A stretch of DNA of 64,000 nucleotides from Thermophilibacter mediterraneus. GTDB taxonomy: Bacteria > Actinomycetota > Coriobacteriia > Coriobacteriales > Atopobiaceae. The translations under genes and the position numbers were made by a program. The stretch is from positions 62,001 through 126,000 of the forward strand of contig NZ_FPKO01000009.1 of assembly GCF_900119385.1 (NCBI RefSeq), read 5' to 3'. The notes under the pieces were generated by a model. That model had not been told where the DNA came from, made no database searches, and worked only from the letters and a program-made list of their open reading frames with translations. Shown here in pieces: positions 12,156 through 60,573 of the stretch (positions within the stretch are counted from its first letter, which is position 1; each line of letters opens with the position of its first letter).

Positions 12156-12175
12156 ATAAGCCTCCCTCGGTAGAT

Positions 12176-12216
12176 GCGCCGTCTTTGCGTTCCTGGTACG
12201 GCTGCCCTCGTCAGGG
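12176..12216 (-). promoter_or_regulatory. guanidine-III riboswitch
   Basis: The minus-strand leader contains TGACGAGGGCAGCCGTACC, then AGGAACGC, then AAAGACGGCGC. This follows the known class III guanidine aptamer, whose published core has GGACGAGGUGCGCCGUACC and ends CAAGACGGCGC (from memory). It ends about 20 bases before the gdx start codon, with the ribosome site immediately after it. Control is therefore probably at translation initiation, turning on when guanidine binds. A TACACT -10 is at 12236-12241. Confidence 0.85.
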
Positions 12217-12235
12217 GCCCGGTGGGCCACAGGGC

Positions 12236-58198: not shown

Positions 58199-58344
58199 CC
58201 CGACCCCCGTGTCCCGTCGTCGCGTCCCGTGGCAAGAGTATCTCACGAGCGCGCCGCGCCACAGGCGACGGCGCCGCGGGACCTCGCCCGCCCGTCGCAA
58301 GGCCACCGACGCCCCCGCGCGGAGGAGGCGTCGCGACAGCAAGA

Positions 58345-58379
58345 GGGGGCGAGAGCCGCGCGTCCGGCCCTCGCCCCCC
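58345..58379 (-). terminator. terminator after the 49-residue gene
   Basis: GGGGGCGAGGGCC and GGCTCTCGCCCCC pair on the minus strand, followed by TCTTGC. The stem is strong, the T-run short. It separates the small gene from the TetR gene; bases 58199-58344 show nothing else. Confidence 0.65.
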
Positions 58380-58401: not shown

Positions 58402-58551
58402 CTAGGCGATGGGAAGCCTGGGGGCGCCGGAGCGAACGTCGACCTCGGCGCGAGCGAGCGAGAAGCTCTTGTCGCCCTGGTGACGGCGGGCGGCCTGGGA
58501 CTTGCTTCCGGAGAAGATGTGCGCGAACAGGTTGTTGAGCTTGCGGCCCAT
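58402..58551 (-). CDS. 49-residue small protein divergent from a radical SAM gene
   Basis: A short gene with an excellent ribosome site (GGGAGGACATC before ATG) and its own terminator. The peptide starts MGRKLNNLFAHIFSG and ends SGAPRLPIA; it has no Cys, is rich in Arg/Lys/Ser/Ala and has no signal peptide. It is divergent from the radical SAM enzyme with a 367-bp regulatory gap. It could be a precursor or partner peptide of that enzyme, or an unrelated small protein. No family is recognised. Confidence 0.6.
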   Translation of the reverse strand: MGRKLNNLFAHIFSGSKSQAARRHQGDKSFSLARAEVDVRSGAPRLPIA

Positions 58552-58666
58552 GATGTCCTCCCTGAGACGTCGCGCCCCGTGGCGGGTGGCGCATCTGCTT
58601 TCCGAGCAAAGAAATCTACTCGAAACAGAAGGGCAAATCTAGAGTGACTAGCATATTATCGACTGA

Positions 58667-58877
58667 TTCACACCAATTACATATTGTGTTCAAATTACGG
58701 CAATCTTAGGGTGTGAACGGAAGAAAAACGTCGGCAAGCGGTAGGGCGAATCCGCCCTGACAGGATACGTCCCCAGACCCGCGCCGATCTGTGGAATATG
58801 CCGCGAACCGCTCGCTTTCACGGAAGAGACACCTCTGCATTTCCACGTTTGTTGATTTTTCCCAATCTGGGTATAAC
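58667..58877. promoter_or_regulatory. divergent regulatory region of the radical SAM and small-protein genes
   Basis: The 367-bp gap 58552-58918 is AT-rich. It holds TTCACACC (58667) and GGTGTGAA (58711) as 8-bp inverted arms, a possible operator. A well-formed promoter for the plus-strand gene is TTGTTG (58849-58854), a 17-bp spacer and TATAAC (58872-58877). The minus-strand promoter is not clear. No other gene is seen. Confidence 0.55.
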
Positions 58878-58918
58878 GACTGGGTACCATTCGAGGCTGT
58901 CAGACGGAGGAGACACCC

Positions 58919-60361
58919 ATGACGCTCACCCAGACGGCGGAACGCGCCGCGCTCTACAAGCTCATCGACTACGTGAACGAGGACCCCGAGGCGCGCATCC
59001 CCAAGATCATGGACGCGATCGACCGCTACACGCCCAAGGGCGTCTTCCCCACGCAGCGCGAGGCGTTCAGGAGGGCCATCGACAGCCGGAGCAACTGGTA
59101 CGAGCTCATCCTGAGGGCGTTTCACCTCAACCCCGAGGTCCGCGCTCGGCTGCTCAAGGCCCTCATCGTGGACGCCAACATCCTCGCCTGGCCGGTCCAG
59201 GAGAGGGCGCGCGACGCCTACGGATGCAACATCCCGTGGGCGATCCTGCTCGACCCCACGAGCGCCTGCAACCTGCGCTGCACCGGATGCTGGGCGGCGG
59301 AGTACGGGCACGCGCTCAACCTCAGCTACGAGGACATCTGCTCGATCGTCGACCAGGGGCGCGCGCTCGGGTGCCACGTCTACATCTACACCGGGGGCGA
59401 GCCGCTCGTGCGCAAGGCCGACCTCGTGCGCATCTGCGAGCGCTACCCCGACTGCGTCTTTCTCTGCTTCACCAACGCCACGCTCATCGACGAGGGCTTC
59501 TGCCAGGAGATGATCCGCGTGGCCAACTTCGTGCCCGCCATCTCGGCCGAGGGCAACGAGCACACCACGGACGCGCGCCGCGGCACCGGCACCTACGCCA
59601 AGATCGAGCGCGCGATGGACCTCCTGCGCGAGCACGGCCTCCCCTTCGGCATCTCCTGCTGCTGGACGCGCGCCAACGCGGACGCCGTCGCCACCGAGGA
59701 GAACATGGACTGGATGATCGAGAAGGGCGCGCTGTTCTGCTGGTACTTCCACTTCATGCCCGTCGGCCGCTCGAGCACCCCCGACCTCATGCCCACGCCC
59801 GAGCAGCGCGAGCGCATGTACCGCTTCGTGCGCGAGATGCGCGGGGTCAAGCCGATCTTCACGCTCGACTTCCAGAACGACGGCGAGTACGTGGGCGGCT
59901 GCATCGCGGGAGGCCGGCGCTACCTGCACATCAACGCCGCGGGAGACGTCGAGCCGTGCGTCTTCATACACTACTCCAACGCCAACATCCATGACGTGAG
60001 CCTGCTCGACGCCCTGCGCTCCCCGCTCTTCATGAAGTACTACGAGGCCCAGCCGTTCAACACCAACCACCTGCGCCCCTGCCCCATGCTCGAGAACCCG
60101 GACGACCTGCCGCGCATGGTGGCCGAGACGGGAGCCCGCTCCACCGACCTCGTCGAGCAGGAGACGCCCGAGCAGCTGCGCGAGAAGACCGCCCCGGCGG
60201 CGGCCGCCTGGGCACCGGTGGCGGAGCGGCTCTGGTCGGACCCCGAGGATCCGGAGCACGCCAAGCGAGGGGACTGGCACGAGGGGCAGGCCGTGACCGA
60301 CGTCACCCGCCTCGCGCGCGTGGGACGCGACCTCGCGACCGAGCCGGAGCCGCGGCTGTAG
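58919..60361 (+). CDS. radical SAM enzyme
   Basis: A 480-residue radical SAM protein. The iron-sulfur motif CxxxCxxC is SACNLRCTGCWAAEYG near residue 118-125, followed by the GGEPL-like YTGGEPLVRK. A SPASM-like Cys set follows after residue 320 (GGCIAGGRRYLHINAAGDVE, then EPCVF, then RPCPMLENPDD), suggesting an auxiliary cluster. The helical N-terminal domain (about 1-100) and the acidic tail are unusual. It is the only biosynthetic-type gene in its neighbourhood, with a 49-residue gene divergent. Start: ATG after GGAGGAG. Substrate unknown. Confidence 0.8.
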   Translation: MTLTQTAERAALYKLIDYVNEDPEARIPKIMDAIDRYTPKGVFPTQREAFRRAIDSRSNWYELILRAFHLNPEVRARLLKALIVDANILAWPVQERARDAYGCNIPWAILLDPTSACNLRCTGCWAAEYGHALNLSYEDICSIVDQGRALGCHVYIYTGGEPLVRKADLVRICERYPDCVFLCFTNATLIDEGFCQEMIRVANFVPAISAEGNEHTTDARRGTGTYAKIERAMDLLREHGLPFGISCCWTRANADAVATEENMDWMIEKGALFCWYFHFMPVGRSSTPDLMPTPEQRERMYRFVREMRGVKPIFTLDFQNDGEYVGGCIAGGRRYLHINAAGDVEPCVFIHYSNANIHDVSLLDALRSPLFMKYYEAQPFNTNHLRPCPMLENPDDLPRMVAETGARSTDLVEQETPEQLREKTAPAAAAWAPVAERLWSDPEDPEHAKRGDWHEGQAVTDVTRLARVGRDLATEPEPRL

Positions 60362-60546
60362 GTCTTTCTCGGCCTCGGGTCCTTCTCGGCCTCGGGTCCT
60401 TCTCGGCCCTCGCCCTTCTCACAGGCGAGAAGAACGTGCGGGTTGCGGTCGAAATACGGTCCCAATCCGTCCGCAACCAGCACGCACCGAAAGGACGTGC
60501 GGATTGCGGTCGGTTCTCGACTAAATTCCGTCCGCAACCCGCACGC
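60362..60546. repeat. microrepeat and two copies of a 51-bp palindrome
   Basis: 60371-60420 has three copies of CTCGGSTCCTTCTCGGCC-like sequence. Copies A (60435-60485) and B (60496-60546) share CGTGCGGRTTGCGGTC and CGTCCGCAACCMGCACGC as arms, 61 bp apart. GGCGAGAAGAACG immediately precedes copy A. They lie between convergent genes (radical SAM and esterase). Confidence 0.8.
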
Positions 60547-60573
60547 AGTTGGAAGGCGCGCCGACCGGTCGCC

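Follow-up and report, generated by a model that had tools for sequence, protein, structure and literature searches.

The systems closest to the locus described here are radical SAM peptide maturases and small bacterial proteins of narrow distribution. A full SPASM auxiliary set consists of seven Cys residues, and some peptide maturases work without an RRE. Regulated orphan small proteins are a general kind among bacteria. A further point of comparison is the membrane-spanning lipid synthase Mss, for which PMC13274423 requires an E value of at most 1e-30 and more than 30% identity to a validated Mss, and with which archaeal Tes is said there to share its architecture. The locus lies in the window, the whole 64,000-nucleotide stretch of DNA that we analyzed.

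Layout of the locus and the radical SAM enzyme

An earlier note on this DNA had described a 49-residue ORF with a strong ribosome site and no Cys, divergent from a radical SAM gene 367 bp away and lying beside a TetR gene. All of this is borne out by the coordinates (Table 1), by the good ribosome site GGGAGG and by a TetR_N match in the regulator (PF00440, E 1.1e-08, 35.1 bits against a cut-off of 24). On the 3' side of the enzyme gene come genes for an arylesterase-like hydrolase, with a further match to Peptidase_S9, and for the periplasmic binding protein of an ABC importer.

Table 1. Features of the locus, in window coordinates
Feature	Position	Strand	Basis or remark
Small protein gene, 49 aa	58402..58551	-	ATG start, stop included; ten homologues, ends kept, purifying selection in close pairs
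Radical SAM enzyme gene, 480 aa	58919..60361	+	N-terminal domain 1-101, core C117 C121 C124, C-terminal part C328 C347 C388
TetR-family regulator gene, 198 aa	57602..58198	-	Beyond the small gene
Ribosome site GGGAGG of the small gene	58557..58562	-	Sequence; AGGAGG or GGGAGG type in 10/10 homologues
Putative leader hairpin of the small gene, between 17-mer and ribosome site	58572..58592	-	Fold prediction for the window copy
17-bp element TGTTTCGAGTAGATTTC, upstream of the small gene	58611..58627	-	Exact in 10/10 genomes with the small gene
Three TTCAC-like units, 11-bp spacing, possible response-regulator site	58667..58693	.	Pattern and by eye
Strong GC hairpin 3' of the small gene, possible terminator	58342..58378	-	Predicted; no T run
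Putative TetR operator region, radical SAM promoter (TGTGGAATA ... TTCCACA half-sites)	58790..58855	+	Pattern by eye
Conserved GGGTATAA, probable -10 region of the radical SAM gene	58869..58876	+	22 loci aligned

Other elements were seen in the window. At the end of the enzyme gene (60361-60411) there are three 17-bp direct repeats of the GGTCCTTCTCGGCCTCG type, and 3' of it (60435-60547) stand two tandem palindromic units with 61-bp spacing. The 17-bp arm of these units has 135 copies in the genome within 2 mismatches, compared to 12 for a reversed control, often at exactly the same 61-bp spacing. The element is a dispersed repeat of the REP-like kind, and its predicted fold is very stable (z -6.9). 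Far from the locus, at 12173-12233 on the minus strand, a Guanidine-III riboswitch was matched at 39 bits (gathering score 36).

The radical SAM core of the enzyme scores 58.3 bits against PF04055 (cut-off 29.5), and its CxxxCxxC motif (C117, C121, C124) does not vary in either of two alignments (21 and 49 sequences). The auxiliary-cluster Cys set attributed to the enzyme in the earlier note stands in part: C328, C347 and C388 are invariant and Pfam SPASM is matched at 22.1 bits against 21.5, but the set is reduced and the match marginal. With three invariant Cys outside CxxxCxxC in the same two alignments, the enzyme does not carry the full seven-Cys SPASM set. Its predicted structure (mean pLDDT 90.8) is closest, among solved folds, to SuiB, SkfB and anSME (Z 23.9-25.4 over 296-316 residues, rmsd 3.2-3.8), and SkfB and anSME are also its best sequence matches in the PDB. 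Comparison of the model to archaeal Tes and to MoaA gave Z scores of 18.3 and 18.7, respectively. In NCBIfam, none of the best 25 of the 59 matched families exceeded its cut-off, the top score being 68.7 bits against 500.

Modeled alone (pLDDT 88), the N-terminal domain is predicted to be all helical and to lack the strands of an RRE. No PDB match was found for it (the best Foldseek hit has E 6), which is no proof of a new fold, and it could be aligned in 39 relatives. The proposal that this helical domain serves as a recognition element for the small peptide is not supported, as the domain is family-wide and not dedicated to the peptide.

Relatives of the enzyme at E 1e-60 or better are present in 87 of the 140 family genomes, with up to four per genome. 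Among the named genomes of the best 80 loci, they occur in Clostridia, Erysipelotrichia and Coriobacteriia, many of them from gut samples; the matches listed include Lachnospiraceae, Oscillospiraceae, Erysipelotrichaceae, Coprobacillaceae (Eggerthia, Thomasclavelia) and Butyrivibrio fibrisolvens. Among the papers listed for this enzyme or layout in our literature search, none concerned the enzyme; streptococcal Rgg/RaS-RiPP systems were represented there. At four named loci, a degenerate relative sits beside an intact copy (L066:6385-7395, L062:970-2358, L068:3691-4857 and L086:3703-4719). The copy at L066 has no CxxxCxxC and can be aligned with residues 5 to 371 of the enzyme profile (hhalign 99%), and the other three were grouped with it by BLAST; judged from these alignments, such copies are possibly an inactive partner subunit.

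We also analyzed the surroundings of the relatives, scanning 115 of the 131 genes that adjoin named relatives (at least 115 aa, clean translation). Counted raw, and among the best 25 of 119 families, these 115 neighbors include 17 with TetR_N, eight SAM synthetases, three DegV, three DUF308, two lysyl-PG synthases and two Zn phospholipases C. No small ORF was common to more than three of the 81 relatives' loci, in a scan with lighter masking whose sensitivity is limited (it recovered one of two known small-gene copies), and the sole group of three was of low complexity. Two loci carry valine-rich peptides of 25-27 aa, probably membrane-spanning, that adjoin the enzyme gene (L081:4712-4795, L081:4834-4917 and L079:6536-6613), while in two genomes of the window's genus two short genes are conserved 5' of a second enzyme paralogue (L045:3930-4360 and L046:2973-3416).

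The small gene and its control region

A protein search found homologues of the small protein in ten of 140 same-family genomes, its own included, and all of these belong to one genus (10 of its 31 genomes; none of the other 109 in the family sample). In 396 genomes of the class, a profile of the protein retrieved seven genomes within the genus and a single partial match outside it (E 0.0066), which we judged to be chance. The ten copies are 49-50 aa long, with aligned ATG and ribosome site in every case. In their alignment, in which three rows lack their last residue, M1, K4, L8, F13, K28, A33, E36, G42, R45 and P47 are invariant; both ends are conserved and the middle is variable, and identity falls to 46%. 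The dN/dS ratio is 0-0.25 in close pairs and 0.35-1.29 in distant pairs, and the L020/L021 pair differs by two nonsynonymous and zero synonymous changes; the distant-pair values mean that long-term selection on the gene is poorly measured. Judged by these alignments, the small gene is coding and represents a conserved protein family tied to one spot. No credible family was found for it in Pfam, NCBIfam or PHROGs.

Residues 2-15 of the small protein form an amphipathic helix, with a hydrophobic moment of 0.50-0.59 in eight of the ten members and a weak one (0.35-0.36) in the other two. Net charge among members ranges from +7 to -1 and, together with the two weak helices, makes a simple cationic membrane anchor less likely. 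The terminator that the earlier note assigned to the small gene survives as a very strong GC hairpin after the stop codon, but its tail is TCTTGC without a U run, and a consensus terminator scan came back empty. Five of the ten homologues have a 3' hairpin with a T-rich tail, the window copy not being among them.

Upstream of the gene, the 17-mer TGTTTCGAGTAGATTTC is exact in 10/10 genomes with the small gene and in 0/130 others, and is unchanged across ten genomes among which the small protein drops to 46% identity. The next best copy in its own genome has 3 mismatches. A one-mismatch copy in another family genome (G120) lies in an unrelated stretch with no small-gene homologue, and was set aside as chance. 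Helix 2, the hairpin that separates the 17-mer from the ribosome site, has changes on both sides in five of its six pairs, with pairing kept. Both leader helices together are paired in 96.5% of cells, compared to 88.7 (sd 1.4) in shuffles, none of 500 of which was as high, and to 38.5-54.4% when slid; these figures come from nine distinct but mutually related rows. The hairpin of the window copy differs in shape and is gapped over most of helix 2, and the covariation rests on the other copies. Helix 1, which the 17-mer would form, is weak evidence, since an unchanging arm still pairs with most transitions opposite it, and since L015, L020 and L038 do not form it when folded as single sequences. 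Folded singly, the window copy and L020 show no unusual stability (z -0.48 each), and five other copies gave z -2.1 to -3.0. No significant Rfam match to the leader was found (best E 2.8). The leader would be transcribed with the small gene; the 17-mer, for its part, may lie 5' of the transcription start and serve as a DNA operator. If the element turns out to act as RNA, it would represent a leader motif of a new kind.

Farther upstream, the first and third TTCAC-type units, with 11-bp spacing, were found by pattern in eight of the ten small-gene loci, the middle unit and the degenerate window copy having been set by eye with no shuffle control. We considered a Pho box for these repeats and rejected it: by eye, the genome's own pst/pstS promoter has TGTAAR-type units and the small gene TTCAC-type units.

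Linkage of the small gene, tetR and the enzyme gene

For the linkage analysis we defined close loci as those with enzyme identity of at least 84% and upstream DNA (n = 21; a 22nd, G102, is cut by a contig end). A divergent tetR is present at 21/21 of them, and the small gene is intact at ten, a remnant at one (L018, in G094) and absent from ten. The core module is TetR plus the enzyme, and it persists without the small gene. At enzyme identities of 74-79%, tetR was found at one of five loci (L031; not L032-L035), and weak TetR matches (25-28%) appear again at L037, L039 and L040. All ten small-gene copies sit between tetR and the enzyme gene, at one copy and one site per genome. The remnant consists of the ORF's last 54 nt, followed by a 3' flank nearly as in L023; its ORF part alone gives a local score of 26, whereas none of 200 shuffles exceeded 20 and the ten close spacers that lack the gene scored 6-10.5. 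From tetR to the enzyme gene there are 150-183 bp at those ten loci, 362 bp at the remnant locus and 567-720 bp where the small gene is present, and from these length classes the cassette seems to have been gained or lost as a unit. In trees built without the partial enzyme copies of L036 and L038, resolution within the genus is poor; the simplest reading of the pattern would be one gain and several losses.

Wherever a homologue of the small gene was found, in ten genomes, it occupies this spot, but only 10 of the 21 close loci have it intact. The earlier note had staked its reading on the small gene not being absent beside close enzyme homologues, and absence is largely what we observed, with none at ten of 21 loci and a remnant at one more. 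Co-adaptation of the enzyme with the small gene was examined and rejected: no enzyme column separates nine loci with the gene from 11 without it, the largest frequency difference being 0.55.

At the enzyme promoter, a TTCCACA/TGTGG palindrome is found in 18 of the 21 close loci (degenerate in the window, where the pattern is not matched) and GGGTATA in 20, both patterns having been set by eye. On sequence grounds, the palindrome is likely the TetR operator and GGGTATA the -10 region of the enzyme gene; TetR would probably repress the enzyme through the TTCCACA/TGTGGAA half-sites.

Readings of the locus and comparison with known systems

We favor, with modest confidence, a locus of two units that share one divergent intergenic region: a TetR-enzyme module and a separately controlled small-protein cassette whose product is a helper or a neighbor and not an obligatory substrate. 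The first unit would be the older, joining a TetR regulator to a radical SAM enzyme of a large gut-anaerobe family, and its enzyme would act on something encoded elsewhere and not beside the gene; our favored guess for this substrate is a membrane lipid. The second would be a one-genus cassette in which the 49-50 aa gene and a terminator-like hairpin are preceded by a control region, itself composed of the 11-bp repeats, the 17-bp element with its strict conservation and the covarying leader hairpin. Its protein, most likely made on its own signal, could dock on the membrane through the N-terminal amphipathic helix and carries a conserved C-terminal R-x-P tail; it may be a partner or helper of the enzyme. 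Among the findings against this explanation are that all ten small genes lie at one spot, as a functional link would also give, and that the enzyme's closest solved structures are peptide maturases. Against its lipid-linked part stands the small number of lipid-related neighbors, given as raw counts.

The maturase folds invite another reading, in which the enzyme acts on the small protein as a RiPP precursor or protein substrate specific to the lineage, with the helix as leader and the C-terminal stretch (A33, E36, G42, R45, P47) as a core modified at a non-Cys residue. The gene adjoins this enzyme exclusively, its product has conserved ends around a variable middle, and the Peptidase_S9-matching hydrolase and importer binding protein follow the enzyme gene, although neither is a typical RiPP protease or exporter. 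A RiPP precursor gene is expected consistently beside its maturase, however, and here it was found at 10/21 close loci; the enzyme is kept without it at ten more and beside one remnant, shows no co-adaptation to it, and has an all-helical N-terminal domain without RRE strands. The divergent orientation and the small gene's own upstream element also speak against a precursor, as does the absence of a common small ORF near 81 relatives in a scan of limited sensitivity. We consider this reading quite improbable, and the new precursor type put forward in the earlier note is not upheld: the enzyme is retained without the gene, none of its residues separates the two sets of loci, and the scan of limited sensitivity found no small partner recurring around its relatives. 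A helper role or mere neighborhood fits better, with the link to the enzyme as a candidate. Mere neighborhood in its strict form, in which the small gene was gained once beside a promoter and kept by vertical descent with no functional link, would explain the single copy and site per genome, the patchy loss and the unaffected enzyme. All ten retained copies still adjoin the enzyme, however, and the shared regulatory space could couple transcription of both genes. We regard pure chance as somewhat unlikely.

Two further readings concern the leader and the enzyme's chemistry. The cassette could be mainly an RNA regulator, a transcript of about 300 nt that codes for the small protein as well and whose conserved leader segment targets mRNAs or is bound by a protein. 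The constancy of the 17-mer over ten genomes, the covarying leader hairpin and the hairpin 3' of the gene all suit an RNA, but purifying selection acts on the protein in close pairs, Rfam yields no significant match, the 17-mer may instead be an operator, and no match to it exists elsewhere in the genome within 2 mismatches, hence no long complementary target; we give this reading little credence. The enzyme, for its part, could be Mss or a relative coupling fatty-acyl tails, which would be compatible with the two-unit explanation. The host families of the relatives overlap those given with Mss and Ger in Table 2 of PMC13274423, and the neighbors include SAM synthetase, FakB/DegV, lysyl-PG synthase and phospholipase C. 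Overlap of common gut families is weak evidence, however; Tes fits the enzyme model no better than MoaA does, and its sequence match to the enzyme is marginal (E 0.025). Co-occurrence with Ger/PlsA was dropped as a test, as Ger/PlsA-type DUF2229, present in 130 of 140 genomes, has no power to discriminate, and the accessible parts of PMC11868695, PMC11604127, PMC8941075 and PMC13274423 give no Mss sequence. An assignment to Mss is doubtful.

The two-unit explanation detaches a large TetR-linked radical SAM family of gut anaerobes from the role of peptide maturase suggested by its fold, and it brings out an orphan small protein with a control element kept more strictly than the protein. If the enzyme acts on lipids, a membrane-modifying activity that can be tested would be added to the repertoire of many gut bacteria. 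In its boldest and least probable form, which we offer as speculation, the 17-bp element and hairpin would constitute a new cis-acting RNA or operator module for a new small-protein family, whose membrane-docking product would tune a TetR-controlled, lipid-acting radical SAM enzyme in one genus.

Set against known systems, the enzyme resembles the peptide maturases SuiB, SkfB and anSME in having a radical SAM core and, after it, a C-terminal part that contains Cys; it differs from them in its three conserved auxiliary Cys and its helical N-terminal domain, and no precursor gene was found family-wide. Its core is homologous to the NCBIfam families StsB, NirJ2, AhbD and the mycofactocin maturase (E 5e-19 to 4e-15), although it scores 56-69 bits against their cut-offs of 265-625. 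Tes shares the radical SAM core but matches the enzyme no better than MoaA, and Mss, with its radical SAM core and overlapping bacterial families, is likened to the enzyme by hosts and not by sequence. The small protein, like the regulated orphan small proteins, is short and lineage-restricted and has an amphipathic helix, its own upstream region and a 3' hairpin. It departs from them in belonging to no Pfam, NCBIfam or PHROGs family, in a covarying leader hairpin without an Rfam match, and in the strict conservation of its upstream element.
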